A DNA stretch of 64,000 nt from Tunturibacter psychrotolerans (lineage in GTDB: Bacteria; Acidobacteriota; Terriglobia; Terriglobales; Acidobacteriaceae): the NCBI RefSeq assembly GCF_040359615.1, contig NZ_CP132942.1, positions 1,116,001 to 1,180,000 of the forward strand, in the 5' to 3' direction. How positions within the stretch are numbered: position 1 is the stretch's first letter; each line of letters begins with the position of its first letter. The position numbers and the translations under genes are program-made. The notes beneath the pieces are model-generated. The model had not been told where the DNA came from. It was given only the letters and a program-made list of their open reading frames with translations, and searched no databases. Positions 489-49,345 of the stretch are shown here, piece after piece.

Positions 489-956
489 ATGCTGCGTCTG
501 ACCAAAAAAGCCGACTATGGGCTGATGGCTCTGAAGTATCTAGCAGAGCAGCAGAACGGTAGTGCCCACAGCGCAAAGGATATCGCAGAGGCGTACCATA
601 TCCCGCCACAGTTGTTGGCGAAGATTCTACAGACTTTAGCGAAGGCGGGGCTGCTGGTTTCGCATGCCGGGACCAATGGCGGCTACGCACTGTCCAAGAG
701 CGCGTCGGAGATTACGGCGTTCGAGGTGATCCGGGCGATCGACGGACCGCTTTTTATTACAAGTTGCATTACGATTCACGGAACTTGCGACCTGGCGGGC
801 CATTGCACCATCAAAGAACCACTGCGTAAGGTGAATGACAGCATCAAGGATTTGTTGAGCGGACTAAGTATCGCGGATTTGATCGAAACCGGGGATACGG
901 AGCAGGGTGCATCGGGAGCCCCGGTGGGTGGCGGTCTGGTGAGCATCGCGCTTTAG
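489..956 (+). CDS. iscR: Rrf2-family regulator IscR
   Basis: A 155-residue Rrf2-family transcription factor. An N-terminal winged helix-turn-helix spans roughly residues 1-80. Three cysteines, C93, C100 and C106, in a C-x6-C-x5-C pattern match the [2Fe-2S] ligand cluster of IscR, which senses iron-sulfur status and represses its own operon in well studied bacteria. It is the first gene of iscR-iscS-iscU-iscA-hscB, all on one strand, which supports IscR rather than another Rrf2 protein such as NsrR or CymR. GGGAG about 10 bases upstream of the ATG serves as ribosome site. The C-terminus ends in a glycine-rich tail. Confidence 0.88.
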   Translation: MLRLTKKADYGLMALKYLAEQQNGSAHSAKDIAEAYHIPPQLLAKILQTLAKAGLLVSHAGTNGGYALSKSASEITAFEVIRAIDGPLFITSCITIHGTCDLAGHCTIKEPLRKVNDSIKDLLSGLSIADLIETGDTEQGASGAPVGGGLVSIAL

Positions 957-1002
957 TCAGGCAAGATCAGTGAAGAATCAGAAGTGACGTTCGGGAGAGA
1001 CG

Positions 1003-2283
1003 ATGAGCAACGAGATAAGTAATAACGGCGTGGTGGTTAGCGAATCATCAGCACCATTACCGGCTGGCGTTACGCTGCCGATCTATATGGACAATCACGC
1101 GACGACACCGATCGACCCGCGAGTTCTGGATGCGATGCTGCCCTACTTCGGCAAGGTGTTTGGCAATGCTGCGAGCCGCAACCACGTATTTGGCTGGGAG
1201 GCGGAACAGGCAGTTGAGAAGGCGCGCGAACAGATTGCCAAGCTGATTGGTGCGACCGCGAAGGAGATTATCTTTACCAGTGGAGCGACCGAGTCGAATA
1301 ATCTCGCGATCAAGGGAATTGCCGAGATGTATCGCGAACGCGGCAACCACATCATCACGCAGGTGACTGAGCATAAAGCCGTTCTGGATACTTGCAAGAA
1401 GCTTGAGAAACAGGGCTATCGCGTCACCTATCTGCCGGTGCAGGCAGACGGACTGATCGACCTTGAGGATCTGAAGCGCGCAATCGATGACAAGACGATC
1501 CTGGTTTCGATCATGTATGCGAACAATGAGATCGGCGTGATTCAGCCCGTTGCCGCGATCGGCAAGCTCTGCCATGAAAAAGGCGTGATCTTCCATACCG
1601 ATGCTGTTCAGGCGGTGGGTAAAATTCCGGTCGATGTGCAGAAGGACAATATCGATGTGCTCTCGCTTTCGGGACACAAGATCTATGGACCGAAGGGCGT
1701 AGGCGCGTTGTATGTTCGTCGGCGTAACCCGCGGGTCCAGATTTCGGAGCAGATCAATGGCGGAGGACACGAGCGCGGAATGCGGTCGGGGACACTGAAC
1801 GTTCCTGGGATTGTCGGGCTGGGGATGGCTTGCGAGATCTCAGGTCAGGAGATGGAGGCTGAAGGGAAGCGCGAGAAGGAGTTGCGCGACTACATGAGGG
1901 CCAAGTTCGAGAAGGCGTTGGATTATGTGCATGTGAACGGCAATATGGACCATCATCTGCCGGGTAACCTGAATATGAGCTTTGTCTACGTCGAGGGCGA
2001 GAGCCTTTTGATGGGAATCAACGATATTGCAGTTTCTTCCGGTTCTGCTTGCACCTCAGCGACCCTTGAGCCATCTTATGTATTGAAGGCTTTGGGTCTG
2101 GGCGATGATGTAGCACACAGCTCGATCCGCTTCGGTCTTGGCCGCTTCAATACGAAGGCTGATGTCGACTATGTTTCAGACAAGGTGATCGATGTGGTTT
2201 CGAAGCTGCGGGAGCTTTCGCCGCTGTATGAGATGGTGAAAGAAGGCATCGATCTTTCGAAGATTGAATGGGCAGCGCACTAA
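1003..2283 (+). CDS. iscS: Cysteine desulfurase IscS
   Basis: A 426-residue PLP-dependent class V aminotransferase-fold enzyme that removes sulfur from L-cysteine as a persulfide for Fe-S cluster assembly. The N-terminal [12 protein letters not shown] motif, the PLP-binding lysine in [10 protein letters not shown] (K226) and the catalytic cysteine on the mobile loop [14 protein letters not shown] (C350) are all present. The first ~25 residues are a short extension before the conserved core. The start is preceded by GGGAGAGACG. It lies 46 bp after iscR and 50 bp before iscU, consistent with a single transcript; a NifS role is unlikely in this context. Confidence 0.96.
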
Positions 2284-2333
2284 GTCTAAAGGCTTCGTGC
2301 TTAGGGATTTGTAAGAAGAGATAGGAGAACAAG

Positions 2334-2750
2334 ATGGCTTATAGCGATAAGGTCGTAGACCACTACAATCATCCACGGAATGTTGGCACGCTGGATAAGA
2401 GTGCTGCCGAGGTTGGTACCGGGCTTGTAGGCGCGCCGGAGTGCGGTGACGTGATGCGGTTGCAGATCCGCGTGAATCCCGAGACGAACGTGATTGAAGA
2501 TGCCAAGTTCAAGACCTTCGGTTGCGGTTCGGCGATTGCTTCTTCCTCTCTCGCGACTGAGTGGGTGAAGGGCAAGACGATCGACGAGGCGATGGCGATC
2601 ACGAACACGGACATTGTGAAGGAGCTTGCGCTTCCTCCGGTGAAGATTCACTGCTCGGTGCTCGCGGAAGATGCGATCCGTGCGGCTATCGGCGACTGGA
2701 AGAAGAAGAATAACGTTGCCGAGACGGCGGCGGTTGCGGTTGCTCACTAA
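2334..2750 (+). CDS. iscU: Fe-S cluster scaffold IscU
   Basis: A 138-residue scaffold on which [2Fe-2S] clusters are assembled from IscS sulfur. It shows YSDKVVDHYNHPRNVG at the N-terminus, the three ligand cysteines C37 (APECGD), C64 (FGCGSA) and C107 (IHCSV), and D39. The LPPVK motif at residues 100-104, the recognition sequence for the dedicated Hsp70 HscA, is intact, and an hscA gene is indeed found in the window at 45.5 kb. AGGAG lies 8-9 bases upstream of the start. The lysine-rich and alanine-rich C-terminal tail is unremarkable. Confidence 0.96.
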   Translation: MAYSDKVVDHYNHPRNVGTLDKSAAEVGTGLVGAPECGDVMRLQIRVNPETNVIEDAKFKTFGCGSAIASSSLATEWVKGKTIDEAMAITNTDIVKELALPPVKIHCSVLAEDAIRAAIGDWKKKNNVAETAAVAVAH

Positions 2751-2818: not shown

Positions 2819-2856
2819 GTCTGTTGGGCTTGAGTGGTATTGGCAAGGACGGCGAT

Positions 2857-3357
2857 ATGGCGATGGTGACACTACAAACCGCGGCGGAGATGGAGGCGGC
2901 CCAGAAGGCTGCTGCATCGGGTGAGTCAAAGAATCCGCTGGCGGGGATGAATGTGCTGACTGCGCAGGGACAGGAACCGGGTCAGAAGGGCATCCAGATT
3001 ACCGAAAAGGCGCTGAAGCGAATCCGTGTCGCGATGGCCAAGGAAAGTGTTTCGCCAGAGCAGGGTGGGCTGCGGGTAGGGATTCAGGGCGGCGGCTGCT
3101 CGGGGTTGAGCTATAACATTCGCTTCGATACGCAGCCCCGTGAACGAGATCGTGTGTATGCGTTTGGTGAGGGGTTGGCTACTGTGGGCGATCCTACCGA
3201 TGGTAAGGCGATACGGATCTTTGTTGATCCGAAGAGCTTTATTTATCTGCATGGCATGGTGCTCGATTTTGAAGAGACGCTGATGCGGCAGGGGTTCAAT
3301 TTCATCAACCCGAATTCGACCAAGAGCTGCGGGTGTGGTTCGAGCTTTACGGCGTAG
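2857..3357 (+). CDS. iscA: A-type Fe-S carrier (IscA/ErpA family)
   Basis: About 166 residues in the HesB/IscA family, which carry Fe-S clusters or iron to client proteins. The three family cysteines are present: C81 in GGGCSGLSY and C158/C160 in SCGCGS near the C-terminus. The conserved core starts near residue 43 (QKGIQITEKAL); the first ~42 residues are an Ala/Gln-rich extension not typical of the roughly 107-residue enterobacterial IscA. The ATG at 2857 is preferred over an upstream TTG at 2824 because AAGGA lies 7 bases before it. Position between iscU and hscB fits IscA; an ErpA-like function cannot be excluded. Confidence 0.88.
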   Translation: MAMVTLQTAAEMEAAQKAAASGESKNPLAGMNVLTAQGQEPGQKGIQITEKALKRIRVAMAKESVSPEQGGLRVGIQGGGCSGLSYNIRFDTQPRERDRVYAFGEGLATVGDPTDGKAIRIFVDPKSFIYLHGMVLDFEETLMRQGFNFINPNSTKSCGCGSSFTA

Positions 3358-3375: not shown

Positions 3376-4005
3376 ATGAGCCACGACGCATACAACAGTT
3401 ACTTCACTTTTTTTCAACTTCCTCAGCATTTGAATCTTGACGTGAGCGCGTTGGAGAAGCAGTTTTATGTCCTGAGCCGTAAGCTGCACCCGGACAGGTT
3501 CGCTTCGAAGCCGGTTGCAGAGCAGGAGGCGGCGCTGGCGAAGAGTTCGCTGTTGAACGATGCTTACCGAACTCTGAAGGACCCGATTGCGCGAACGCAG
3601 TATATGCTGACGCTCGAGGGTGTGGAGCTTGAGGAGCAGTCGAAGGCGGCGACGGATGCAGCGCGGGCAACGGGTGAGCAGAAGAAACAGATTGTCCCTC
3701 CGGAGTTGCTGGAAGAGGTCTTCGAGCTGAACATGCAGTTGCAAGAGATGCGCGCGGCTAACAAGATGGGCGAGGATGAGCCTGAGTTGCGGCGCGATCT
3801 GATGACTGCGAAAGATACATTCGACGCGAAGATGGTGGACATCCAGGCGGAGTTGGAAGGGCTGTGGTCGGTGTGGGACGCTGGGGTGGATGCCGGGGAT
3901 GAGGCGGCGAAGACTCGCGCGAAGGATGCAATGGTGGTGTTGTTGAACAAGCGAAGCTACCTGCGGAACCTGGTGCGGGACGTCAATGAGGCCTTGGGAG
4001 TCTAA
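3376..4005 (+). CDS. hscB: Hsp20/J-type co-chaperone HscB
   Basis: A 209-residue J-domain co-chaperone for HscA. Residues 1-75 form the J domain with the H38-P39-D40 motif in SRKLHPDRF, and the C-terminal region (about residues 95-205) is the helical IscU-binding domain. In characterised ISC systems HscB delivers IscU to HscA and stimulates its ATPase. The start lies 18 bp after the iscA stop. Its partner hscA is not next door as usual but 41 kb away within this window, with the intervening DNA holding sugar-catabolic genes. Confidence 0.92.
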   Translation: MSHDAYNSYFTFFQLPQHLNLDVSALEKQFYVLSRKLHPDRFASKPVAEQEAALAKSSLLNDAYRTLKDPIARTQYMLTLEGVELEEQSKAATDAARATGEQKKQIVPPELLEEVFELNMQLQEMRAANKMGEDEPELRRDLMTAKDTFDAKMVDIQAELEGLWSVWDAGVDAGDEAAKTRAKDAMVVLLNKRSYLRNLVRDVNEALGV

Positions 4006-4184: not shown

Positions 4185-4213
4185 AAAAGCCCCGGCAGCG
4201 GCCGAGGCTTTTT
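4185..4213 (+). terminator. Intrinsic terminator after the isc genes
   Basis: AAAAGCC at 4185-4191 pairs with GGCTTTT at 4206-4212, with an inner CGGC/GCCG stem, one mismatch pair and an AGCG loop, followed by a T-run ending at 4213. Because A-runs flank the other side, it could also act on the opposite strand for lepB, which ends at 4704. Confidence 0.7.
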
Positions 4214-4404
4214 CTCTTCTGTATTCATTATAGCGGTTTGAAGATAACTCATACGCCACGCGAATGATCAGGATTGGCGCGGATTTTCGTCGTTCAAGGG
4301 CTTGACAGAAATTTTGGCCATGTAGGTTTGTGTATCGAGGTGAAAATTTGACGCTTGTGAGAAGCCCTAACGCGCAGTAGATGCCAACGAGCGCATCGGG
4401 TTGT

Positions 4405-4505
4405 CGCCACTGCGCTGGTTACAATCAATTCCGCCACCAGCACAACGATTTGCCGCCACCCAATGCAAGGTTATGCCGCCACTCGGTACAGCAATATTCC
4501 GCCAC
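4405..4505 (+). repeat. Phased CCGCCAC repeats, possible transposon end
   Basis: CGCCAC cores start at 4405, 4432, 4454, 4477 and 4500; the last four are full CCGCCAC copies spaced 22-23 bp, two helical turns. Regular short transposase-binding repeats of this kind are typical of IS21-family ends. No istA/istB-like gene is nearby, so this would be a remnant end or a multi-site operator. Family assignment is inference. Confidence 0.5.
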
Positions 4506-4703
4506 TGAATTGATTGCAGAGCGAGGGTAACAAAACTATCATCCGCCCCGGAGGCGTGTGAGGTAAATTCATTCGAACTTGCTCATAACCCCGTTTTTCG
4601 TGCACTAGTACTCTATTGAACAGTGATACTGGGGTGTAGAGCAGGATGACCCGGGGAACGGATTCAGCTTCAACAACTATGTTTGTGCGCCATGGATTAC
4701 CAC

Positions 4704-5519
4704 TTAGCTCACGATATGCAATGTGCGTTTCCAGCGGGTTCCGTCGAAGATATGAAGCACGACGTGCCCGATGAACCCTAAGCGTTCACCGATCGATTGC
4801 TTGTCGATCTGGTGTGCCGGAGTATCGAAGGACCAGTAGACGAAGAGAGGACGTCCGAGGATGTTCTCAGTCGGAACGAAACCCCAGAAGCGGCTGTCAA
4901 GGGAGGCAAGACGGTTGTCACCCATGGCGAATCCCATACCGTCGGGAACGACCAGGTCATTGTCTTGAATGTGACTTGGAAGCTCGGCGGCCCATGTGGC
5001 GGCATGGTTGGCAGATGCTTGAGCACTGATGCCCTCTAAGTCCTGAGGGAAGTCATCGCGATACGACTGATAAACGTGGTTTGGATCGCCATCGTATGCG
5101 GGCATGGCGGCATAGGCTTCGTTCTGCGCAACCCCGTTGAGGTAGAGAACTCCATTGCGGAGGTGAATGCGATCTCCAGCGATGCCGATCAAGCGTTTGA
5201 CAAGGATAAGGCCAGGCGTTTCTGGGTGGGGCTTAAGGAAGACGATGACGTCACCGCGCTTCGCTGACCGGTAACGAACCAGTGGCATCCACTTTGTCTG
5301 CGGAGCCAGCGTGGTGCGATCAACCAAAACATGGTCACCAATAACCAGGGTCTTCACCATGGAAGCAGAGGGAATCTCGAAATTTTGAAAGATAAATGTC
5401 ATCACGAACAGCCCGATGACGAGTACAACGCTCATACTGGCAATCGATTCAAGGAGCGACTCCCGAACCTCGACCTCTACCGGAGGCTCAGCAGTATTCT
5501 GTTCGTCAATCAATGCCAA
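4704..5519 (-). CDS. lepB: Signal peptidase I
   Basis: A 271-residue membrane serine protease that removes signal peptides from secreted preproteins. One N-terminal membrane segment (about residues 28-45) is followed by the periplasmic catalytic domain. The nucleophile is S53 in PSASMVKTL, the general base K108 in LVKRLIGIAGD, and the late GDNRLASLDSRFWG box is intact. In this protein the usual SGSM sequence is SASM. Lacking the second transmembrane helix of E. coli LepB, it resembles the shorter single-span type. It precedes a TlpA-like gene by about 110 bp but a shared transcript is uncertain. Confidence 0.93.
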   Translation of the reverse strand: MALIDEQNTAEPPVEVEVRESLLESIASMSVVLVIGLFVMTFIFQNFEIPSASMVKTLVIGDHVLVDRTTLAPQTKWMPLVRYRSAKRGDVIVFLKPHPETPGLILVKRLIGIAGDRIHLRNGVLYLNGVAQNEAYAAMPAYDGDPNHVYQSYRDDFPQDLEGISAQASANHAATWAAELPSHIQDNDLVVPDGMGFAMGDNRLASLDSRFWGFVPTENILGRPLFVYWSFDTPAHQIDKQSIGERLGFIGHVVLHIFDGTRWKRTLHIVS

Positions 5520-5628
5520 ATCGTGTCGCCTTTCTTAAGCGGCTTCGCCTTCCAGTTTACGGTCACCAGACTAATACCGTTCCATTGCGGTCTCGATACA
5601 GTCACTTCCCCGGGCAAAGCAGCGGGGG

Positions 5629-6609
5629 TTAGGGCAAAAGATTGCCGAGCGTGATATCTAAATTCTGTCCTGATAGTGGAAGATGATCCGTTTGTGAGGT
5701 CGAAACAATTGTTCCGTTGCCGTCGATGAGAACCAAAGTGGGCCACGCCGTAATGTGAAAAAGATTTTGGAGCATATCTTGATCCGGCTTTGCTTCAGGC
5801 CACGAGGCATTGAGCTTTTGCATCAACTTCTTCGGCTTATCAACCTCTGCGTCGGCATTCATTCCGAGTATTTCGAAACCCTTGACGTGAAATCGATCGT
5901 ACGCCTCCTTCCTGGAGGGAAGGTCGGCTACGCAGGGGACGCACCAGGTGGCCCAGAAATCAAGCAGTATGTACTTTGCCTTGATGTCAGAAAGCTGGTG
6001 CGTCTCGCCGGAGAAATCCCGGTAGTTGAAGTTTGGAACTTTCCCGTCGACGACCAGCTCAATGCGCTGCTTGTCGGCTGAAACAACCTTCAGAACCAGT
6101 TTGCGCGTGTTCAGGTCAAGACTTGCTGTCTGCAACCAAAGATCATCTACGTGAAAGGTGGGCAGAGTGGTTGAGGGGATGCCGACCTCCGCGCTTCCTG
6201 GTGTGGCATCGAATTTCCCATCACCATTGGTATCGAACCATTCGGTTGCGTGCTTTAGATCAGTGGTGCCTGTATCGGGGTCAAAAGAGAATCGGACTTG
6301 CAGCTTGCGGTTTGGAAGCTTGGCATCTCCCGTCACATAGGATCTGTCCCCGACGATAAGCATGGCTTGATTGGGCTTGAGGGGATACCCTTCAGTGCTC
6401 TTTGGCAGGGCAACGTAGGCTGGTGCAGTGCGAAACGGTCCTGTTCGAAGGGGAATGTTGAAACGCGCCTCCGCTGAATGGTAAGGCTGCGACGGGCCGG
6501 TCAACGGAATACGCGTGGGATTCCGTAGTGCGCCGCCGCCACTGTGGAGGTCGACGAAGAAGACTTTCTCGCCATCCTTGAGCAAGCAGAGTGCAGCGCC
6601 GAAATCCAA
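5629..6609 (-). CDS. TlpA-like secreted thioredoxin protein (main part)
   Basis: Residues about 190-326 form a TlpA/ResA thioredoxin-like domain with the redox pair C223 and C226 in FWATWCVPCVADL and the cis-Pro region ITAWPTLVLID. Such proteins reduce disulfides outside the cytoplasm. Upstream is an uncharacterised beta-rich region with an EF-hand-like loop DTNGDGKFD (126-134). The open frame continues upstream to about 6735 with convincing sequence (NIDPSTISELYRGDLKF) but has no good start; the TTG at 6609 is arbitrary. The signal peptide lies in another frame at 6736-6851, so the gene appears frameshifted unless the sequence holds an error. Confidence 0.75.
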   Translation of the reverse strand: MDFGAALCLLKDGEKVFFVDLHSGGGALRNPTRIPLTGPSQPYHSAEARFNIPLRTGPFRTAPAYVALPKSTEGYPLKPNQAMLIVGDRSYVTGDAKLPNRKLQVRFSFDPDTGTTDLKHATEWFDTNGDGKFDATPGSAEVGIPSTTLPTFHVDDLWLQTASLDLNTRKLVLKVVSADKQRIELVVDGKVPNFNYRDFSGETHQLSDIKAKYILLDFWATWCVPCVADLPSRKEAYDRFHVKGFEILGMNADAEVDKPKKLMQKLNASWPEAKPDQDMLQNLFHITAWPTLVLIDGNGTIVSTSQTDHLPLSGQNLDITLGNLLP

Positions 6610-6735
6610 AGCTTGAGCCTTTCCGAACTTCAGATCTCCCCGGTAAAGTTCAGAAATCGTCGATGGGTCGATGTTGAGATCTTGTGCGAGGCGCGGGTCA
6701 GTTTTATCCCAGAGCAGTACCGAGCCGATGCTGTA

Positions 6736-6851
6736 TCAACTGAGAGCTGCTGGCTGACATGTCCATGAAAAGCTTGCGCGTGTAAAGAGGCTGCACTCAG
6801 GCAGATGATCAGCCCGGGAGGCAGGGCTTTGAAGATGTCGCGTAACAACAT
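6736..6851 (-). pseudogene. Frameshifted N-terminus of the TlpA-like gene
   Basis: From the ATG at 6849-6851 this frame encodes MLLRDIFKALPPGLIICLS followed by AASLHAQAFHGH, a clear signal peptide with an Ala-x-Ala-type cleavage site. The frame then runs into sequence without protein character, while the next frame takes over at about 6735 (YSIGSVLLWDKTDPR) and continues into the thioredoxin protein. The two pieces make one complete exported protein if a single frame change near 6736-6750 is allowed. Confidence 0.6.
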
Positions 6852-7003
6852 GCCACCCACTCTAAAGTTGTGAAATATCCGCATGCAAGGCTTCTAGTTC
6901 CCGTAAAGTCATACTTGCGGCAAGTTCGAGATCGAAGTTTCCTATAACCCCGCTAATGAGATGGTCCGTCGCTTGATCTTCCCCAAGTTGTAGAGGATCT
7001 GCG

Positions 7004-8101
7004 TCAGTCACCGAGCTGGAGAACCTCTCCGCTTTGGGCGCTGGAGCGGTAGAGCGCTTCCACAAGCGCCATGGTTTGGAAGGCGTCTTCGTAGTGGGTC
7101 GGCAGGTTGGAGGTTGAGCCTTCCACGAAGGCCTGAAGAGCTCCCATCGTCCCGATAAAGCCGTCGGGAATGTTAGCTCCCGCAACTGGAAGTGACTCCC
7201 AGCAGTCGTCGGTGCATCCCCGCTCGGCAAACTCGGCTGTGTCGGGAATTCCTATGGGGTAGTCCAGATTCATGCCCATGCTGATGCGAGCCGCACCACG
7301 AGTACCTTCCCATTGCACGAAGCTGTGCTGATGCTTCTGGCCAAAGTTGTGATGATGATTACTTGCAACGAAGACCCGCATGTTACTGCCGTAGTCCAGG
7401 ATTGCGATGGTCTTGGTCGCGGCCAAGTTAGCCGTGTGAGGGTTGTTTACGGTTTTCGCGTAGACGCTGTTTGGATTTCCGAGCCAGGAGCGAATCAAGT
7501 CGAAGTAATGGATGCTGTGATACAAAACCTCAACTCTCGGCGCGGTGGCGAGGAAGGTCCAGAGGTCCCAGGGCGTGTAGGTAGTCGTTTGAACCTGAAG
7601 ATCATGGAGATCTCCAAGCAAACCGGCCCTTGCCAGGGCTGAGATCGCCAGATTGTTAGGGGAATAACGTAGGGAGAAGTTGACTGAGGCCGTGAGGCTT
7701 TTGGCCCGGCAGAGATCGCGAATAACACGCGCCTCTTCAATTGTCTCTCCCATAGGCTTCTGCATCAAGACGGCGGACCCATCAGGAATGTGAGGAAGAA
7801 TATGCGAGAGTTGCGAGGCAGGTACGGCGATATCGTAGACGACATCGTTGGGAGCGAACTGGACGACGCTGTCGATATTGTCAAAGGTGCGAGCGATGGC
7901 GTGACTCTTAGCCAATAAGTCTGCTCGTTCAAGATCCTGATCCATCAAACCGATGACCGAGAACTTGCCCTTTTCGTAAGCAGGCAGATGTGCGGACCGA
8001 ACGATGCCTCCCGCTCCGATGATAACGATAGGGCGCTTTTGTTTGGGCATTGGCGGCAAAGCGTGCGCCCTAATCGCGGAGAGGACTGAGTCTCGGATCA
8101 T
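7004..8101 (-). CDS. Gfo/Idh/MocA-family oxidoreductase
   Basis: A 365-residue NAD(P)-dependent sugar oxidoreductase. The N-terminal Rossmann fold carries the GAGGIVRSAHLPAY dinucleotide motif (about residues 28-41), and the QKPMGETIEEA segment contains the family's catalytic-type lysine-proline (normally EKP; here QKP). The C-terminal half is the substrate-binding alpha/beta domain. Its ATG overlaps the stop of the permease gene (ATGA at 8098-8101), so translation is coupled to the fucose operon. As no other candidate is present, it may supply the first step, oxidation of L-fucose to its lactone, but this is inference; another sugar or inositol substrate is possible. Confidence 0.85.
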   Translation of the reverse strand: MIRDSVLSAIRAHALPPMPKQKRPIVIIGAGGIVRSAHLPAYEKGKFSVIGLMDQDLERADLLAKSHAIARTFDNIDSVVQFAPNDVVYDIAVPASQLSHILPHIPDGSAVLMQKPMGETIEEARVIRDLCRAKSLTASVNFSLRYSPNNLAISALARAGLLGDLHDLQVQTTTYTPWDLWTFLATAPRVEVLYHSIHYFDLIRSWLGNPNSVYAKTVNNPHTANLAATKTIAILDYGSNMRVFVASNHHHNFGQKHQHSFVQWEGTRGAARISMGMNLDYPIGIPDTAEFAERGCTDDCWESLPVAGANIPDGFIGTMGALQAFVEGSTSNLPTHYEDAFQTMALVEALYRSSAQSGEVLQLGD

Positions 8102-10327: not shown

Positions 10328-10341
10328 AATATATTTCCGTA

Positions 10342-40279: not shown

Positions 40280-40301
40280 TCGTACACTGTACCATTATGT
40301 T
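40273..40301 (+). promoter_or_regulatory. Promoter of the FAD monooxygenase gene
   Basis: TTGACA at 40273-40278, a perfect -35, and TATGTT at 40296-40301 are 17 bp apart. The -35 lies inside the start region of the divergent TetR gene. Transcription would begin near 40308, leaving about five bases before the ATG at 40313, that is, an almost leaderless mRNA. Confidence 0.65.
40279..40294. promoter_or_regulatory. Operator 1, imperfect, between -35 and -10
   Basis: TTCGTACACTGTACCA is a near-copy of operator 2 with one arm mismatched. It fills the spacer between the -35 and -10 of the monooxygenase promoter and abuts the TetR start codon, an ideal place for repression of both genes. Confidence 0.6.
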
Positions 40302-40303
40302 TG

Positions 40304-40322
40304 TTTCGTACAATGTACGAAA
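40304..40322. promoter_or_regulatory. Operator 2, perfect palindrome over the start codon
   Basis: TTTCGTACAATGTACGAAA has perfect 9-bp arms around one central base. The monooxygenase ATG (40313-40315) lies at its centre. It is the likely main binding site of the adjacent TetR protein. Confidence 0.75.
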
Positions 40323-41635: not shown

Positions 41636-41655
41636 GGTGCGGGTCTTGCCCCAGC

Positions 41656-41677
41656 GCTCCAACGAATGCGTTGGAGC
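41656..41677. other. Hairpin downstream of the FAD monooxygenase
   Basis: Nine-base arms at 41656-41664 (GCTCCAACG) and 41669-41677 (CGTTGGAGC) are perfectly complementary with a 4-base loop. There is no T-run, so it is not a standard terminator, though it may stabilise the 3' end of the preceding mRNA. Confidence 0.5.
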
Positions 41678-41728
41678 AGATAGCGACGTTTGTGGAGGAT
41701 GTGCGTCTGATCTTCACTTGGAATTGCG

Positions 41729-42934
41729 ATGGATCTTCATTTGAAAGATGATGGATTGACTTCGCGCTCCGGAGAGAGACTCTTATGGAAGTATTGCTGC
41801 ATGGGTGAGACAGAGAGCGAGCTGTCGAGGCTGGTAGACCAGCTTAATCGTTCGGCGAACAATTCGAGATCGGGCGAGAAGAGAACGCTTGATCAAATTC
41901 TTAGCACGGCGTTTCAGCGGCATGCGTCCGATATTCTTCTGGTTGCCGGTTCGCCAGTGACCCTGCGGGTGAATGGCGCATTGACGCCGGATGTGGGAGC
42001 AGCCCTCTCGTCCGAAGAGGTTAGGGGGATGCTGCAGTCGTTGCTTTCTGCGGAGCGACTGGCTGAGCTGCAGGAGCATAAGTCGCTGGATTTCTGTTTT
42101 GTGCGGCCTTCGATTGGAAGATTTCGCGCGAACTTTCATTATCAGCGTGGCACGCTGGCAGCGGCGATTCGCGTGCTGCCGGAGCAGGTGCCCTCGCTGG
42201 AGTCGCTGCATCTGCCTGCCGGACTGGCGATGTTGACGGAGCGAAGGCAAGGGCTGGTGCTGCTCACGGGGCCGACGGGGTGCGGAAAGACTTCAACGCT
42301 GGCGGCGCTGGTAGATCGGGTGAATACTCTGCGGCGCGACCACATTATTACGATCGAAGATCCGATCGAGTATCAACACCTGAATCGCAGCTCTCTGGTG
42401 GAGCAGATAGAACTCGGGCGTGATACGCCAGACTTCGCGCAGGCGGTGCGGTCGGTCCTGCGGCAGGACCCGGATGTGATCATGATTGGGGAGATGCGCG
42501 ACAGCGAGACGATGGCGGCGGCCTTGACTGCGGCAGAGACGGGTCATCTGGTTTTGTCGTCGTTACATACGAACGATGCAGCGCAGACGGTCTCGCGCAT
42601 TCTGGATACTTTTCCTTCAGGGTATCAGTCGCAGATTCGACAGCAGCTTTCCCTGGCGTTGCTTGCTGTGATTTCGCAACAACTACTGGCGGCTGCAGAT
42701 GGTGCAGGACGATACCCGGCGGTTGAAATTTTGGTGGCGAACGGCGCTACGCGGAATTTAATTCGGCGGGGAGATGATCATCAATTGCGCGCGAACATCG
42801 AGACTGGACGCGCGGACGGAATGTTGACGATGGAGCAATCGCTGGCGGAGCTTGTGAGGGCGTACAGGATCTCGCGTGAGACGGCGTTCGCGCACTGCTA
42901 TCACCCGGAGGATCTGCGACGGCACTTGAGTTAG
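41729..42934 (+). CDS. pilT: PilT-like type IV pilus ATPase
   Basis: A 401-residue GspE/PilT-family secretion ATPase, closest in layout to the retraction ATPase PilT. The N-terminal part includes HASDILLVAGSPVTLRVNG (66-83), the Walker A motif GPTGCGKTST is at 181-190, followed by the Asp box (IITIEDPIEYQH), Walker B (DVIMIGEMRDSET) and His box (ETGHLVLSSLHTNDAAQT). No other pilus gene is nearby, so it is an isolated copy. A start at 41801 is also possible; the first 24 residues lack family character. The C-terminal tail is variable. Confidence 0.85.
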   Translation: MDLHLKDDGLTSRSGERLLWKYCCMGETESELSRLVDQLNRSANNSRSGEKRTLDQILSTAFQRHASDILLVAGSPVTLRVNGALTPDVGAALSSEEVRGMLQSLLSAERLAELQEHKSLDFCFVRPSIGRFRANFHYQRGTLAAAIRVLPEQVPSLESLHLPAGLAMLTERRQGLVLLTGPTGCGKTSTLAALVDRVNTLRRDHIITIEDPIEYQHLNRSSLVEQIELGRDTPDFAQAVRSVLRQDPDVIMIGEMRDSETMAAALTAAETGHLVLSSLHTNDAAQTVSRILDTFPSGYQSQIRQQLSLALLAVISQQLLAAADGAGRYPAVEILVANGATRNLIRRGDDHQLRANIETGRADGMLTMEQSLAELVRAYRISRETAFAHCYHPEDLRRHLS

Positions 42935-43428
42935 CTGGGTTTGGCGGTGAGGCGTTCTAGTTGTTGGAGGTGGTTGATGTCGTGGCCGGCCATGGTTTCG
43001 ACGATGGTCCAGAGAGTCATGGTGCCGCGTTCGGGATGGGTGGCGGGGCGATGGCGTTCGTCGCCGGAGATGGTGGCGAGGAAAAGGAGATTCCAGTTGC
43101 GCATGGCCTCGAAGAGCGCGAGTGCAGGCTCGATGGGGTAGACGGCGTAGCGGTCGGCCCAATCCTTCTGGTCGAAGGGTTGGATGATGTGGTGGGGCTG
43201 GTCGGTTGGGGTGGCGAGGGTCTGGCGGAGACGGAAGCCGAAGACGGTTTCGGTGTCGGCGAGGTGGGTGATGATGTTCGTGATGCTCCATTTGCCGGGG
43301 GCGGGTGGGGCGTTCAGCTGCGCGTCGGTGAGGCCGGTGGTGAGAGCGTGGAGGCGCCCGGAGGTGCCGGTGAGGACGGGGAGTGGGTCCTGATTGTCGA
43401 GGTATTTGGCGTATGGGTTTAATTCCAT
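42931..43428 (-). CDS. DinB-family protein
   Basis: A 165-residue four-helix-bundle protein of the DinB/YfiT group. Three metal-binding-type histidines can be placed: the HLADTETVFGFRLRQ histidine near residue 55, and the GHDINHLQQL pair near residues 148-152. Such proteins often act as bacillithiol- or mycothiol-dependent transferases or are of unknown function. Its stop overlaps the stop of the convergent pilT-like gene. No partner gene is evident. Confidence 0.85.
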   Translation of the reverse strand: MELNPYAKYLDNQDPLPVLTGTSGRLHALTTGLTDAQLNAPPAPGKWSITNIITHLADTETVFGFRLRQTLATPTDQPHHIIQPFDQKDWADRYAVYPIEPALALFEAMRNWNLLFLATISGDERHRPATHPERGTMTLWTIVETMAGHDINHLQQLERLTAKPS

Positions 43429-43511: not shown

Positions 43512-43928
43512 TTATTTGAAGTGTAGATACATTCCAATGGAGCGTGGTGCGGTGGGCTTGAAGCCAAAGAGTGAGTAGAGACGATGGGCTTCGCCGTCGG
43601 CGATGAGGCTGATGTAGGCGCCGGGCAGGGCGGTTTTGTGGAGGTGCTCGACGAGCGCGCCGACGATTCGCTTGCCGAGGCCGCGCTTCTGATGTTTCGG
43701 GTCGACGGCGATGTCGACGATTTGGAAGAAGAGGCCGCGATCGCCGATGATGCGGCCCATGCCGATGGCTTCGCCGTCCTTGCGGATGACGACGGCGTAG
43801 ATCGTGTTTGGTAGTCCGGCTACTGCGGCCTCTGCGCTCTTTGGGCTCAAACCGGCGGCGATGCGGAGGCGTCGGTAGTCGTCTGAGGATGGTGTGGCTT
43901 CGACTAATTCGTATTCTTCGTCAGTCAT
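43512..43928 (-). CDS. GNAT-family N-acetyltransferase
   Basis: About 138 residues of the GNAT fold. The acetyl-CoA pyrophosphate-binding loop is DPKHQKRGLGKRIVGAL, preceded by the beta4 strand QIVDIAV. The start at 43928 (MTDEEYELVEATPS) overlaps the end of the upstream VOC gene by 8 bp, so the two are translated together. The long alternative start would run through the VOC gene. Substrate unknown. Confidence 0.87.
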   Translation of the reverse strand: MTDEEYELVEATPSSDDYRRLRIAAGLSPKSAEAAVAGLPNTIYAVVIRKDGEAIGMGRIIGDRGLFFQIVDIAVDPKHQKRGLGKRIVGALVEHLHKTALPGAYISLIADGEAHRLYSLFGFKPTAPRSIGMYLHFK

Positions 43929-44418
43929 CTCCCTGCGCTTTCCTGGACGGTTCTTTTGTTGAGGTGGAGTTTTGCTGTGAGGGTTCGGGAGCCCAGGGGT
44001 CGTAGGTGCCGACGCCCCACATGTGGCCTTCGAGGTCGCGGCACGAGAAGTGGCGTCCACCATAGTCCATGTCGCGGATGTCGATGATCATCTCGGCGCC
44101 GGCTGCCTTTGCGGAGGCGTAGACGGCGTCGGCGTCGGGGACTACGAGGTAGGCACCCTTGGTCTCGCGGAAGCCGATTTCGTCGGGTTGGACCATGAAC
44201 TTGCCGGCTTCGCCGCCGTTGTCGACGGAGCCGATCATGATCATGCCGGGGCCGAGTGTGAGTTGGGCGTGTTGTACGGTTTTGTTGTCGGGTGCGACGA
44301 AGACGGCTTGTTTTTTGAATCCGAAGGCGGCGATGAGCCAATCGATGGCGGCGAGCGCGTCGCGGTAGCGGAGGCTGGGGATGACGGTTGATCCGTTGGT
44401 GGTCATTTGAGTGTTCAT
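43921..44418 (-). CDS. VOC-family protein (PhnB/YkcA-like)
   Basis: A 165-residue vicinal-oxygen-chelate protein with SLRYRDALAAIDWLIAAFGF at the N-terminus and MDYGGRHFSCRDLEGHMWGVG near the end, the pattern of PhnB-like glyoxalase-fold proteins. The C-terminus is Ser/Thr/Lys-rich and extends past the domain. It overlaps the GNAT gene and is downstream of an AraC gene on the same strand, though a dispersed repeat lies between them. Its enzymatic role is unknown. Confidence 0.85.
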   Translation of the reverse strand: MNTQMTTNGSTVIPSLRYRDALAAIDWLIAAFGFKKQAVFVAPDNKTVQHAQLTLGPGMIMIGSVDNGGEAGKFMVQPDEIGFRETKGAYLVVPDADAVYASAKAAGAEMIIDIRDMDYGGRHFSCRDLEGHMWGVGTYDPWAPEPSQQNSTSTKEPSRKAQGDD

Positions 44419-44578: not shown

Positions 44579-45400
44579 CTAGTCGAGGGGGATGTGGTTG
44601 GCCCAGATGCGGTTAGTGGTGGAGTAGTCGGTGGCGCTGAGGCCGGAGAAGGCGCGGAAGTCGTTGGCGAAGTGGGACTGGTCGTAGTAGCCGCAGGTGA
44701 GGGCGAGTTCGGCCCAGGGGACGTCGGCGCCGCGGTGCATGAGTTGGAGAGCTTGCTGGAAGCGTTGGATGCGGCAGTAGAGCTTGGGAGAGATGCCGAC
44801 TTGCTCGTTGAAGCGCTCGGAGAGGCGTCGAGGGCTGAGGCCGGTGGTGCGGGTGAGCTCGGCAATGGTCGTGGTGCCGGGTGAGGCGTGGAGATGGGTG
44901 AGGGCGTAGTCGAGAACGGGATCGCGACGCTGGTGTTTGCTGAGGGATAGGCGCGTGAGGAGGGCGAATTCGAGGAGTGAAAATTTTCGCTCGGGTGTGG
45001 GGGCTTCGCGGAGGTCGTTGCGGAGGTTGAGGGAGGCGCGGCCCCAGAGGTCATCGAGAGCGGTTTCGCGGTTGGTGAAGATGCTGGCGTTGTCGGGGAA
45101 GAAGGGCACGGTGCCGCCGGGATGGAAGACGACGCCGATGAGTTCGGTGAAGTCGATGGCGTCGATCTGCTGGTAGCGGGAGAAGATGCCGAGGAAGATC
45201 GCTGCGGGGGTGCGTGAGAGTGGGTTGATGAAGTTGTTGGCGTCGGTGAGGTGGTCGCGTGCGAGAGAGAGGACGATTTGAGCGCGGCCCGTGGGGAGGA
45301 CTCGTTCGTGACGATGGACGGCGTGGGGGTCGCGGACATACCAGAGAGCTTTGATGAAGGGTGCGAGAGCGGGTTGGGGGGGGTGCTCCAAATAGAGCAT
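44579..45400 (-). CDS. AraC-family regulator with DUF6597-like N-terminus
   Basis: A 273-residue regulator. The N-terminal domain begins LEHPPQPALAPFIKALWYVRD and includes HERVLPTGRAQIVLSL and IGVVFHPGGTVPFFP, a pattern of a sensor domain common in AraC proteins. Two helix-turn-helix motifs follow: TIAELTRTTGLSPRRLSERFNEQVG and WAELALTCGYYDQSHFANDFRAFSG. It may control the downstream VOC-GNAT pair. It is divergent from hscA, 107 bp away. Confidence 0.9.
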   Translation of the reverse strand: MLYLEHPPQPALAPFIKALWYVRDPHAVHRHERVLPTGRAQIVLSLARDHLTDANNFINPLSRTPAAIFLGIFSRYQQIDAIDFTELIGVVFHPGGTVPFFPDNASIFTNRETALDDLWGRASLNLRNDLREAPTPERKFSLLEFALLTRLSLSKHQRRDPVLDYALTHLHASPGTTTIAELTRTTGLSPRRLSERFNEQVGISPKLYCRIQRFQQALQLMHRGADVPWAELALTCGYYDQSHFANDFRAFSGLSATDYSTTNRIWANHIPLD

Positions 45401-45507
45401 GCATCGGCCTCGGGTTGGAGCACATCTGAAGGAGATGCGCGTGGGTGGCGGTGTTCGTGATGCGATTGTAGGACAATAGAAGATGGACTAATAGGGGATT
45501 TGAAGCG

Positions 45508-47514
45508 ATGGCGGATGACCGGGTTGTAGGGATCGATTTGGGTACGACGAATTCGTTGGTGGCGTTTATGGAGGGGGGTACGCCAGTGGTGATACCCGGC
45601 GAGGATGGTGAGCGACTGGTGCCATCGGTGGTGGCGTGGACTGATAACGGCGTGGTGGTGGGGAATGCGGCGCGCGGAACGTTGATGGCCGACTCGGCAA
45701 GCGCGGTTTATTCGGCTAAGAGGCTGATGGGACGAGACATTGAGGACGTGCAAGGGGAACTGAAGCTGTTTCCGTTCAAGCTGGCGGAGGGGTTGAAGCC
45801 GAATGAGGTGCTGAAGGTGAGCGTGGGCGGGTTGATGCTGACGCCGCCGGAAATTTCGGCGTACGTACTGCAGCAGTTGAAGAAGAATGCTGAGAGATTT
45901 TTTGGTGGGCCGGTGACGAAGGCAGTGATTACGGTTCCCGCTTACTTCAATGATGCGCAGCGGCAGGCTACGAAGGATGCGGGGCGGATTGCGGGGCTGG
46001 AGGTACTGCGGCTGGTGAACGAGCCTACGGCGGCGGCGCTGGCTTATGGGCTGGATAAAAACAAAGATGGCTTGATTGCGGTGTATGACTTTGGTGGCGG
46101 GACGTTCGATGTTTCGATTCTGAAGCTGCATGAGGGGATCTTTGAGGTTATCGCGACGGGTGGGGATACACATCTGGGCGGGGATGATATCGACAACCTG
46201 ATCATTGCGATTGCGCTCGACGATATTGCTGGTGACCTGGGTGAGGACGTTCGCGGGAATGGCGAAGCGGTGCAAGCGGTGCGCAAGGCGGTGATCGAAG
46301 CGAAGATTCTGCTTTCGAGTGCGCACAACGCTACGTTGAATGTGGAGCTGCCGAGTGGGAAGAGATATTTGCGACAGATTTCGCGGGAGCAGTTTGAGGG
46401 TTTGATTGCGGGAGTGATTGCGCGGACTGCCGCTCCTTGCAAGCAGGCGCTGAAGGATGCGGGTCTGTCTGCGGCACAAATCGATGAGGTGGTGCTGGTG
46501 GGCGGATCGACGCGGATACCTGGGGTGCGGGCCTTGGTGGATGATTTGTTCGAGATGAACGCTCGCGGGAAGAAGCCGCATACGGAGTTGAATCCGGATG
46601 AGGTGGTGGCGCTTGGCGCGGCGGTGCAGGCGCAGATTTTGGCGGGAGGGTCAGCTGCGACGGAGGATTTGTTGTTGCTGGATGTGACGCCGCTTTCGTT
46701 GGGGATTGAGGCGCTGGGTGGTGTGGTGGCGAAGATCATCCAGCGGAACTCTACGATTCCTGCGAGCGCGACGGAACACTTTACGACGGGTGTGGATGGG
46801 CAGACGAATGTTGCGATCCATGTGGTGCAGGGAGAACGTGAGATGGCGAAAGACTGCCGTTCGCTGGCGCGGTTTGAGCTAAAGGGGATTCCACCGATGG
46901 TGGCTGGGCTGCCTCGGATTGAAGTTAAGTTTCTGATCGATGCGAATGGGATTCTGCATGTGAGTGCCCGCGAGCAGAGGAGTGGGAAAGAGGCTGAGGT
47001 AGAGGTGAAGCCGACGTATGGGCTGACGGATGAGCAGGTGGAGACGATGATTCTGGACTCGTTCGATAACGCCGAGATCGATATTCAGGAGCGGCAGACG
47101 ATTGAAGCGAAGAACGAGGCAGACACGATTCTGACTGCAGTGAAGAAGGGAAAGAGCCATGCTGCGTGGCAGATGTTGACGAGTGAAGAGATTGAAAAGA
47201 TAGGACAGGCTACTTCTTTTCTAGAGGCGGCGGTGCAGGGTGGCGAGTACAAGGTGATTCGCACGGGGATCGAGCGGCTTGATGCGGCGACGCGGCGGTT
47301 TGCAGAGTTGATGATGGATAACGCAGTGTCGGGCGCGATGCAGGGCAAGACGATGGAGGCCGCAGGTGAGAGCATAGGAGAGGGGCCTACGGCGCCGCAT
47401 CCTTTTGCAAAGGCGCAGGTAAGCAGCTCGCATGCTGATGCGGATGCTGAGACGAAGAGGATTGAAGAATCCATTTACGATGAGGCTACGGCCGGAGAGT
47501 CGACGGAAGATTGA
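45508..47514 (+). CDS. hscA: Hsp70 chaperone HscA
   Basis: A 668-residue Hsp70. The ATPase domain shows GIDLGTTNSLVAF, AVITVPAYFNDAQRQATKDAG, YDFGGGTFDVS and VLVGGSTRIPGVR, and the substrate domain spans about 400-540 (LLLDVTPLSLGIEALGG). The helical lid and acidic tail follow. It is called HscA and not DnaK because it is translationally linked to an ISC-type ferredoxin, and IscU in this window carries the LPPVK HscA-binding motif. In the ISC system it uses ATP to release clusters from IscU. The matching hscB is 41 kb upstream. Confidence 0.9.
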   Translation: MADDRVVGIDLGTTNSLVAFMEGGTPVVIPGEDGERLVPSVVAWTDNGVVVGNAARGTLMADSASAVYSAKRLMGRDIEDVQGELKLFPFKLAEGLKPNEVLKVSVGGLMLTPPEISAYVLQQLKKNAERFFGGPVTKAVITVPAYFNDAQRQATKDAGRIAGLEVLRLVNEPTAAALAYGLDKNKDGLIAVYDFGGGTFDVSILKLHEGIFEVIATGGDTHLGGDDIDNLIIAIALDDIAGDLGEDVRGNGEAVQAVRKAVIEAKILLSSAHNATLNVELPSGKRYLRQISREQFEGLIAGVIARTAAPCKQALKDAGLSAAQIDEVVLVGGSTRIPGVRALVDDLFEMNARGKKPHTELNPDEVVALGAAVQAQILAGGSAATEDLLLLDVTPLSLGIEALGGVVAKIIQRNSTIPASATEHFTTGVDGQTNVAIHVVQGEREMAKDCRSLARFELKGIPPMVAGLPRIEVKFLIDANGILHVSAREQRSGKEAEVEVKPTYGLTDEQVETMILDSFDNAEIDIQERQTIEAKNEADTILTAVKKGKSHAAWQMLTSEEIEKIGQATSFLEAAVQGGEYKVIRTGIERLDAATRRFAELMMDNAVSGAMQGKTMEAAGESIGEGPTAPHPFAKAQVSSSHADADAETKRIEESIYDEATAGESTED

Positions 47515-47952
47515 ATGATGAGTGAGACGAAGAAGATTGAAGATGTAGTGGATTTGTCGAAGCCTGCGGGTGAGGGAATGGTTCGCGTGACGTTTTTGCC
47601 TGAAGGCAGAACGGTGGAGTTCCCGTTCGATACGCTCCCGTATGAAGGGCATGGATTGCCGATGTCGTTTTTGGATGTGGCGGAAAACTACGATATTTTT
47701 CTCGATCATGCGTGTGGTGGTGTGTGTGCGTGCACGACGTGCCATATCCATGTGAAGGAAGGCGCACAGGGGCTCAGCGAGGCGGAGGATCTGGAGTTGG
47801 ATCGGATGGAGACGGCGGCGGATATTCAGCTGAACTCACGACTGGGATGCCAGGCGGTGATTGAGAAGCCGGGGACTTATGTGGTTGAGATTCCGAAGTG
47901 GAATCGGAACTATGTGCAGGAAGGCAAGCCCTCGCATGGGCCCGGGGCGTAA
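47515..47952 (+). CDS. fdx: ISC-type [2Fe-2S] ferredoxin
   Basis: A 145-residue adrenodoxin-like ferredoxin. Residues about 20-130 form the fold; the cluster ligands are in CGGVCACTTCHI (three of the four cysteines) and the later LGCQAV. ISC ferredoxins donate electrons during cluster assembly. It starts directly after the hscA stop (TGAATG), so it is co-translated. The N-terminal ~20 residues and the tail WNRNYVQEGKPS are extensions. The next gene, on the opposite strand, interrupts the expected fdx-iscX junction. Confidence 0.92.
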   Translation: MMSETKKIEDVVDLSKPAGEGMVRVTFLPEGRTVEFPFDTLPYEGHGLPMSFLDVAENYDIFLDHACGGVCACTTCHIHVKEGAQGLSEAEDLELDRMETAADIQLNSRLGCQAVIEKPGTYVVEIPKWNRNYVQEGKPSHGPGA

Positions 47953-47977
47953 TAAGGTTCACTCTTAGAGTGGATCT

Positions 47978-49051
47978 TCAGGCGGGAAGGATTCCGTACT
48001 TTGCTTCGAGGAAGTTTTGCAGATCTTCGGGGAGCGCGGTGTTTAGTTCCTGCCAGGTGAGGAGCTTGAGGCGCCAGGCGAAGCTGGGGTAATGGACCGC
48101 GGCGAGGATCGAGTACCAAGTCTCGATGAGGTCGTGGCGGCGGGTGTCGCAGAGGACGCAGAAAGATGCGTCGGAGTCGAAGGCGGCGAGGACGTTGCGG
48201 ATGAGCTGGTAGCCCTGGATTACTGTGCGGGATCGTGCTGGAGTGGGTGTGCCTGAAGTTGTGCTGGTGGGCTCTTCGAGGTCGGCGAAGTCTTCGGTGG
48301 GCGGGTGCGTTGGAGCTGACGTGATGGTCTTCTTCGGTAGGCGTTCGATGTCGAAGATGGTTTCGAGATCGCGGTAGCGTTCTATGAGACGTTGGCTGGC
48401 GGTCTGGAAGTTGGATTCGGTGAGCTTGGCTTCGAGGAAGAGATTGCCGAGTTGGAGGTCAATCTCGGTGCGGTCTTTGAGGAGATCTGGTTCTTCTGGT
48501 TGTGTGGGGACGTGGGGTTTGTTGAAGATAGATGCTGTGGACTTTTGTTGGGTGGAGCGTGTTGCTTTTTTTCTGCGGCTGGCTGTGGATTTTTTTAGTG
48601 GAACGCCGGGGTGGATGCCGAAGTTTGGTTGGGTGTCTGAAGGGATGCCTAGAAGGTTTGCGACAGTGGGGTTGAGGCGGTTGTTGGAGAAGACATCGGG
48701 ATGGCAGAAGATGTTCATCAGAAGCGCGTCTGAACTGTTGGCGCAGTCCAGCTCCATCCATTGCCAGTCGGCCCTTGCGCGCACGCGGCGGTGGGCGGTG
48801 TGCGCTTTGGTGAGGCGGCGGGACCATTCGGAGTTGGCGCAGATGGCGGTGTAGCTGGCGAGATGGAAGTTGCCGTGGCGTGCTTGCTCGGCTTGTTCAT
48901 CGCGGCCAAAGATGATGCTGGGCTCGGAGCCGGTGGTTTGCTCGTGCAGGAGTTTGCCGGTGAGGGCGAGATGTTGGGCGCGAGCGTTCAGGTCGCGGCG
49001 AAGGAGTGACGCTGACCAGCGGGCTGGAGCGCTTAGAGGGTTTTGAGTCAT
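47978..49051 (-). CDS. Putative PD-(D/E)XK-type nuclease-like protein
   Basis: A 357-residue protein on the opposite strand between fdx and iscX. The region around residues 190-215 contains TEIDLQLGNLFLEAKLTESNF: a D-x(n)-E-x-K arrangement typical of PD-(D/E)XK nucleases. The middle (about 150-185) is low-complexity Lys/Ser/Thr-rich, followed by another charged linker. The C-terminal part ends FRLKLLTWQELNT-like (FAWRLKLLTWQEL), reminiscent of uncharacterised putative restriction-endonuclease-like proteins. No methylase is adjacent, so a restriction role is unproved. The call is inference from one motif. Confidence 0.6.
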   Translation of the reverse strand: MTQNPLSAPARWSASLLRRDLNARAQHLALTGKLLHEQTTGSEPSIIFGRDEQAEQARHGNFHLASYTAICANSEWSRRLTKAHTAHRRVRARADWQWMELDCANSSDALLMNIFCHPDVFSNNRLNPTVANLLGIPSDTQPNFGIHPGVPLKKSTASRRKKATRSTQQKSTASIFNKPHVPTQPEEPDLLKDRTEIDLQLGNLFLEAKLTESNFQTASQRLIERYRDLETIFDIERLPKKTITSAPTHPPTEDFADLEEPTSTTSGTPTPARSRTVIQGYQLIRNVLAAFDSDASFCVLCDTRRHDLIETWYSILAAVHYPSFAWRLKLLTWQELNTALPEDLQNFLEAKYGILPA

Positions 49052-49129
49052 AAAACTGTAGCCGATTTCTTGTAGTCTTTGTGTGGCAGCGGCTGTAGCT
49101 GCTCGAAAATTATTTTATCGGGGGATGTT

Positions 49130-49345
49130 ATGGCGTTTGAGTTTGATTGGACCGATGCAGAAGAGATTGGAATTCAGTTGCAGGAGAAGTATCCGGAGAT
49201 TGAGCCGTATTCTGTGCGGTTTACGGATTTGCACAAGTATGTGACGGGGTTGCCGGGATTTGCGGGAGATCCGGCTAAGTCGAATGAGGGGATTCTGGAG
49301 GCGATTCAGACGGCGTGGAATGAAGAGTATGAGGATGCGAAGTAG
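49130..49345 (+). CDS. iscX: Iron-binding Fe-S assembly protein IscX
   Basis: A 71-residue acidic protein matching the size of IscX. The pattern W-T-D-A-E-E-I-G near the start, YPEIEPYSVRFTDLHKYV in the middle and SNEGILEAIQTAWNEEYED at the end follow the family layout closely. IscX binds IscS and iron and tunes cluster assembly. It is the last gene of the standard isc cluster; here it follows fdx but is split from it by the opposite-strand gene at 47978-49051. GGGGATGTT precedes the ATG at 49130. Confidence 0.93.
   Translation: MAFEFDWTDAEEIGIQLQEKYPEIEPYSVRFTDLHKYVTGLPGFAGDPAKSNEGILEAIQTAWNEEYEDAK

Follow-up and report, generated by a model that had tools for sequence, protein, structure and literature searches.

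The canonical isc operon, of the Escherichia coli type, is arranged as iscRSUA-hscBA-fdx-iscX. The break-up of an operon by insertion, followed by separate promoters for its parts, is a general concept, and such break-up is usually inferred from end states. Here, we analyze an isc locus in a 64,000-bp stretch of the Tunturibacter psychrotolerans genome (the window; positions 1116001 to 1180000 of contig C1, NZ_CP132942.1, in the 5.6-Mb genome G000), in which the isc set consists of two collinear pieces on the same strand, at 489 to 4005 and 45508 to 49345, with 41,502 bp between the hscB stop and the hscA start. An earlier account made from the letters alone (the sequence-only reading) had reported these two pieces in standard operon order, and protein models of the open reading frames (ORFs) bear it out. 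From a survey of 62 genomes of a genus that we take to be Edaphobacter of GTDB (the genus set), together with the distributions of an element before hscA and of a candidate operator before the first half, we conclude that the split is old, that the chaperone half has probably left the control of the regulator, and that a large glycan-utilization block in the gap is late. The whole history, that is, an early split by small opposite-strand genes (here called wedge genes), an hscA element of its own, and a later landing zone for other DNA, has in our estimate a probability of about 75%.

With regard to regulation, a study of Myxococcus xanthus (PMC9973013) gives the footprinted motif of RisR, an Rrf2 regulator of isc, as T(t/g)GAC-N7-GTCC(t/a) and assigns Acidobacteria to IS6, the Rrf2 group to which RisR belongs. 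According to the same source, iscS to fdx form one transcription unit in M. xanthus and risR is found with suf, whereas in the window the regulator heads the isc set and the region upstream of hscA lacks the operator core. The evolution of gene blocks is the subject of PMC4481853.

In the window, IscS, IscU, HscB, HscA, and IscX pass curated model cut-offs, and the A-type carrier and the Rrf2 protein have subfamily or superfamily matches only. The carrier scores below the IscA equivalog cut-off (79.6 < 150.6) and the ferredoxin below that of fdx_isc (82.0 < 132.1), leaving matches at the family level. The regulator at the head of the first piece, previously called iscR, is an Rrf2 protein that falls far below two IscR equivalog models (70.5 < 207.55 and 53 < 275) and is therefore more safely named Rrf2. 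The components, their order, and the LPPVK motif of IscU, which is seen in the protein as had been claimed, are those of the E. coli-type operon; the window differs from it in that 41.5 kb separate the two pieces, an antisense gene precedes iscX, and the regulator is under the IscR equivalog level. A single operon, as in the ISC assembly system, is not what the window holds, as its 41.5-kb gap contains opposite-strand genes. The second piece, described as hscA-fdx-iscX, is present and collinear, but its fdx and iscX are parted by an antisense REase-ARP family gene (47978 to 49051). A gene of this family (PF22558) also stands between fdx and iscX in 13 relatives read.

Across the genus set, all 62 genomes have an hscB match, and 59 have hscA at E ≤ 1e-170. 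Both genes lie on one contig in 48 genomes. Of these pairs, 39 are collinear, with gaps ranging from 47 bp to 263 kb, while 6 have the two genes on opposite strands and 3 have them in reversed order; gaps were taken from match coordinates, seven genomes were assumed to be circular, and the hscA match of G085 is partial, making its true gap about 2.7 kb, not 3.7. The two genes are more than 500 bp apart in 45 of these 48 genomes and within 500 bp only in G011 (47 bp), G013 (58 bp), and G061 (466 bp), the near-contiguous genomes. Eleven further genomes with hscB and hscA on different contigs, which may be assembly breaks, were counted as separated in the element tally given below. Most of the named relatives that share the locus are records of Edaphobacter and Granulicella. 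The sequence-only reading had held that a separation shared by most close relatives, with unrelated DNA in between, would speak for an old split and against this insertion as its cause; that is largely the pattern found, with other genes between hscB and hscA in the stretches read.

The nearest genome, G002 (HscA identity, 98%), aligns to window positions 1 to 4314, 33855 to 35116, 36450 to 39570, and 39674 to 53216 at 88 to 91% DNA identity. Its hscB and hscA are already 10.9 kb apart, separated by genes that still stand, at 89 to 91% DNA identity, at the right of the window gap, and where the window has 4315 to 33854 it has 94 bp. Because this 29.5-kb block is absent from the G002 alignment, it is either an insertion in the window strain or a deletion in G002. 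None of 40 relative stretches compared has GH95, GH36, or GH27 at this place, for which reason insertion is favored over deletion; the gap of G069 has only a distant TonB-receptor match (24 to 33%). The glycan block thus appears to be a late insertion in the window strain. It is highly improbable that its arrival cut an operon that was intact until then in this lineage, as had been proposed: its presence in the window and absence from G002 at this place is the lineage-specific difference such an event would leave, but without it G002 is split all the same, and so are G014, G065, G025, G032, G063, G064, G029, and G066, by 3.4 to 8.1 kb. On the evidence of these genomes, we rule out the block as the cause of the split and hold it responsible for the size of 41 kb that the gap has today. 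Similarly, the statement that the gap is mostly glycan-utilization DNA holds for about 29.5 kb, but the right-hand 11 to 12 kb is a different and apparently older gene set.

Outside the genus set, hscB and hscA lie roughly 20 to 100 bp apart (match coordinates) in the class-level genomes G052, G054, G055, G058, and G060; among 24 non-genus relatives, these 5 are the ones in which hscB was matched. They are within 200 bp of each other in 40 of 53 scorable named loci from outside the 62 genus genomes (80 named loci, less 24 from genus genomes and less L101, L144, and L147, which have no room for hscA). This adjacency in outgroups supports the earlier proposal that an ancestral operon was split by insertion or rearrangement, with the glycan block removed from the role of cause.

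The genes that recur at the break are small. DinB-like and/or glyoxalase-like genes on the opposite strand are present in 40 of 57 stretches read: dinB was found in 36, and 4 others (G003, G016, G068, and G079) have the glyoxalase-like gene but no dinB; 24 of the 57 stretches are only 0.9 to 1.7 kb long, and a missing dinB or glyoxalase-like (VOC) gene there means one not found close to hscA. In G003, G016, and G079, the glyoxalase-like gene is the only one found of the three wedge genes, and dinB is alone in some genomes (e.g., G015, G023, and G082). Moving away from hscA, the genes that are present come in the order araC, glyoxalase-like gene, dinB, and they lie on the strand opposite hscA throughout the 57 stretches except G070, in which dinB and the glyoxalase-like gene are located on the far side of an inversion, together with hscB. 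A comparison of eight gaps of the lichenicola clade shows variable DNA between hscB and dinB.

A sharply bounded 14-bp element, TTGTAGGACAATRG, is conserved upstream of hscA (Table 1). With one mismatch allowed, 45 of 53 separated genomes and none of the 3 near-contiguous ones have it 33 to 181 bp upstream of hscA (Fisher P value = 0.006, a test that ignores relatedness). This tally covers 56 of the 62 genomes, as G004, G027, and G072 have no full hscA and no hscA start was read in G018, G019, and G073. The 25 aligned rows were picked for having the element within one mismatch, and its invariance there is partly due to selection. In a less biased genome search, 13 of 18 genomes each had a single exact copy of TTGTAGGACAATRG, in every case before hscA; the 5 genomes with no exact copy are G014 and G015, which have one-mismatch forms, and the near-contiguous G011, G013, and G061. 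As a control, the reversed pattern gave one match in the 18 genomes, and there was no TTGTAGGACAATRG in the scanned named loci from outside the genus set. The element is probably part of a promoter or operator, and separate promoters for the two halves, as suggested earlier, are likely in view of this conserved hscA-specific element. Could it instead belong to the divergent gene, be it dinB, VOC, or araC? In the shortest split genomes (G023, G015, G084, G005, and G082), the element does lie in the divergent intergenic region, with the dinB start 145 to 197 bp from hscA. However, it keeps its 33 to 181 bp from hscA whether the divergent neighbor is dinB, VOC, araC, or none found in the stretch, and it is also present where about 1 kb read upstream contains no wedge gene (e.g., G067, G071, G077, and G078), so that ownership by the divergent gene is quite improbable.

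Upstream of the first half, the candidate operator shares with the RisR motif the GAC-N7-GTC core (436 to 448), its spacing, and its location near the -10/start region, whereas of the four outer positions given in PMC9973013 only the G before GAC fits. The likeness to RisR lies in this operator core and in an Rrf2 protein as the putative regulator of isc genes. The core is present in 25 of 29 iscR upstream regions (200 bp; 5.2% of shuffles have it), and none of the 32 hscA upstream regions (150 bp; 3.1% of shuffles) contains it; the mean operator-profile score at hscA equals that of shuffles. An IscR-responsive promoter at hscA, which had been suggested, is thus not supported, and a site of the Rrf2/RisR type before hscA likewise finds no support in the profile and pattern tests. 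The chaperone half has probably left the control of the Rrf2 regulator, to judge from these upstream regions.

We propose that, early in the history of the genus, small genes on the opposite strand (DinB-like, glyoxalase-like, and later AraC-type) came to lie between hscB and hscA and so broke up an ancestral operon, Rrf2-iscS-iscU-iscA-hscB-hscA-fdx-iscX, which would have ended read-through into hscA. The hscA-fdx half would have come to carry its own upstream element, TTGTAGGACAATRG, and the first half would have kept its operator with the RisR-like core. With read-through no longer of consequence, the interval from hscB to dinB may have turned into a tolerant landing zone, which would have taken copCD and neighbors in the window strain and its sister and then the 29.5-kb fucoside/galactoside block in the window strain. 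Of this history, the analysis shows the order of the genes, the nesting of the gap content, the conserved and unique element, and the lack of the operator core at hscA, whereas the direction and sequence of events, the promoter function, and the lost co-regulation are inferred.

Several observations weigh against this history. The element is missing from 8 of the 53 separated genomes (G003, G016, and G079, with VOC only; G006, G020, and G085, with dinB; and G034 and G035), only 3 genomes make up the near-contiguous class, and genomes that are related do not count as independent. A promoter scan found no sigma-70-like promoter before hscA, the 25-row alignment has no conserved -35 column around TTGTAGGACAATRG, and in G030, G031, and G082 the best operator-profile score at hscA is slightly above the best of 30 shuffles. 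Thirteen of the 53 outside loci, including Terriglobus roseus, have gaps of 0.38 to 3.5 kb, so that separation is not confined to the genus. Finally, in a FastTree tree of IscS, HscB, HscA, and Fdx with 41 taxa, which joins G000 with G002 (0.999), the near-contiguous G011+G061 and G013 fall among split genomes, and several deep supports are low (0.2 to 0.85).

Given this nested position, G011, G061, and G013 may have been re-fused, or the wedge may have entered repeatedly. With several independent entries, the three contiguous genomes would simply keep the ancestral state, and the modest support of deep nodes and the differing content of the gaps (dinB only, VOC only, or both) would be accommodated; but many genomes have the two wedge genes in an identical order and orientation, a recurrence that favors one gain with later losses and leaves repeated entry unlikely. 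The tree would tentatively suggest re-fusion by wedge loss in the G011, G013, and G061 lineages. We offer only tentatively the further idea that in most of the genus HscA-Fdx is uncoupled from Rrf2/RisR-type feedback and depends on a dedicated, once-per-genome TTGTAGGACAATRG read by its own regulator or sigma factor, with some lineages having re-fused and lost the element.

The locus resembles the general concept of operon break-up in the insertion between operon genes and the apparent later separate control. It differs from it in that one genus keeps gaps of many grades, the smallest 47 bp and the largest hundreds of kilobases, and a conserved single-copy element tied to the separated gene. 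The preserved intermediates (47 bp, 0.6 kb, 1.1 kb, 4 to 11 kb, 41 kb, hundreds of kilobases, and relocated), together with a candidate replacement control element, offer a direct test of how a core machine survives the loss of shared transcription of scaffold and chaperone. Among the titles and the starts of abstracts listed from one open-access library, we found no description of a split isc operon in Edaphobacter.

Table 1. Features of the window, in window coordinates
Feature	Position	Strand	Basis
Promoter-like pair TTGCGC (401), 17 nt, TACACT (424); candidate promoter	401..429	+	Conserved in aligned genus upstream regions
Candidate operator GGACTGGAATTGTC, GGAC-N7-GTC, RisR-like core; overlaps likely transcription start	435..448	+	Pattern and alignment
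Rrf2-family regulator (earlier "iscR")	489..956	+	Protein models
iscS	1003..2283	+	Protein model
iscU, LPPVK present	2334..2750	+	Protein model and motif
iscA-type carrier, subfamily level	2824..3357	+	Protein model
hscB, J-domain with HPD	3376..4005	+	Protein model and motif
Hairpin after hscB, T/A runs flanking, possible terminator	4185..4212		Hairpin scan
Putative 29.5-kb lineage-specific insertion: L-fucose/alpha-galactoside utilization genes, lepB, thioredoxin-like gene	4315..33854		G002 alignment, Pfam
CCGCCAC repeat array (~23 nt), left-end type of a probable mobile element	4405..4506	+	Repeat comparison
CCGCCAC repeats, inverse orientation, right-end type	33768..33818	-	Repeat comparison
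AraC-family gene, common to G002 at same place	33850..34689	-	Pfam, G002 comparison
copD, copC, MBL-fold, tetR, FAD monooxygenase, T2SSE-like ATPase; G002 order identical	36476..42934		Pfam, G002 comparison
DinB-superfamily gene (PF12867), putative old opposite-strand wedge	42931..43428	-	Pfam
Glyoxalase-like gene (PF00903, VOC), putative old wedge	43921..44418	-	Pfam
AraC-family gene (DUF6597 and HTH_18), putative later wedge member, divergent from hscA	44579..45400	-	Pfam
TTGTAGGACAATAG, hscA-specific conserved element, start 42 bp before hscA	45466..45479	+	Alignment and genome search
hscA	45508..47514	+	Protein model
fdx, 2Fe-2S ferredoxin; best match fdx_isc, under cut-off	47515..47952	+	Protein model
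Antisense REase-ARP family gene (PF22558), between fdx and iscX	47978..49051	-	Pfam
iscX	49130..49345	+	Protein model

From left to right, Pfam matches in the block begin with lepB, a thioredoxin-like gene, Gfo/Idh/MocA, MFS, amidohydrolase, FAH, SDR, MR/MLE dehydratase, and IclR and continue with an SSF symporter, a TonB-dependent-receptor-like protein, enzymes of the GH95, GH36, and GH27 types, and a LacI regulator. The amidohydrolase is closest to L-fucono-1,5-lactonase (283.5 bits, under the cut-off of 400). Three successive minus-strand genes at 25488 to 30020 have no informative Pfam match (a weak TAT-signal match only), and a 714-aa protein encoded there has a weak likeness to GH27/GH36-type structures. 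To the right of the block follow AraC, an uncharacterized ORF, copDC, MBL-fold, TetR, FAD monooxygenase, and T2SSE-like ATPase genes, and the last genes before hscA are DinB-like, GNAT, glyoxalase-like, and AraC. The T2SSE-like gene matches G002 in three pieces, and a second difference between the window and G002 amounts to 1.3 kb at 35117 to 36449. The hairpin after hscB was reported by the scan on the minus strand only and, with 1 found against 1.1 expected in shuffles, is weak by itself; by eye, similar hairpins follow hscB in G002, G025, G032, G063, and G066.

CCGCCAC repeat arrays stand near both ends of the block. A 1.2-kb element in G022 (L172, 501 to 1713) is likewise bounded by a left-type and a right-type end and is flanked, at its exact ends, by a 6-bp duplication, TCCAAC, and because of this target duplication the arrays are most likely the ends of something mobile. 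The only long ORF of the G022 element (233 aa) is by eye not transposase-like, no search having been made, and this is perhaps a nonautonomous cargo element. In a draw of 299 class genomes, with only the two best candidates per genome scored, the left end gave five scores, spread over four genomes, and all but one of them fall inside the hscB-hscA gap (G000, G014, G025, and G065); the window's own left end has matches in 11 of 61 relatives searched, many of them outside the gap. A signal peptidase I gene adjoins a left-end repeat or remnant in the window (4704 to 5519), in G014 (L170, 6079 to 6879), and, with only a weak 26-bp match, in G066 (L234, 7268 to 7984); the window protein is about 50% identical to the G014 and G066 copies.

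We doubt, without dismissing it, that the 29.4-kb segment between the left- and right-type arrays moved as one transposon-like unit. The two end types are inverted at 4405 to 4506 and 33768 to 33818, and the G022 element, with ends of these kinds, has its 6-bp duplication, but the longest word common to the two stretches compared at the junctions of the block, CGCTGG (4413 and 33821), shares letters with the conserved end sequence, and chance alone would give roughly as much (0.4 expected, an estimate); we do not count it as a target duplication. Moreover, Pfam recognized no transposase among the block's 19 main ORFs. The arrays are set about 90 and 40 bp inward of the breakpoints of the G002 alignment, and they may be leftovers of separate copies.

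Other sources of mobility were considered and rejected. For IS21 with istAB as the source of the repeat ends, IstB gave three weak matches in the window's own genome, and the genus set has 15 IstB places, in 9 of 62 genomes; of these places, 9 were read with flanks, and none of the 9 has an array of at least 3 units, in a test that misses 2-unit arrays. The test is insensitive: the right array of the window escapes it, as do several 2-unit arrays already known, and the 80 HscB loci (1.28 Mb) yielded 4 arrays. For an origin of the left array on a plasmid there was one weak match (E = 0.1), and tRNA-linked integration was set aside with no tRNA in the window, where no RNA family reached the gathering score. 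A search for HscA on plasmids was uninformative (257 records, all <60% identical, the best listed being named DnaK).

Two further kinds of change were seen at isc loci of the genus set. In G072 (L244, 7038 to 12410), an internal deletion leaves about the first 57 and last 58 codons of hscA, and the locus has other DNA in place of iscU and iscA, which may point to the loss of a working ISC system. In G010, G012, G024, G026, G028, G033, and G034, iscU is on the other strand from hscB, far off, or on another contig, and therefore the operon may break at other joints too.

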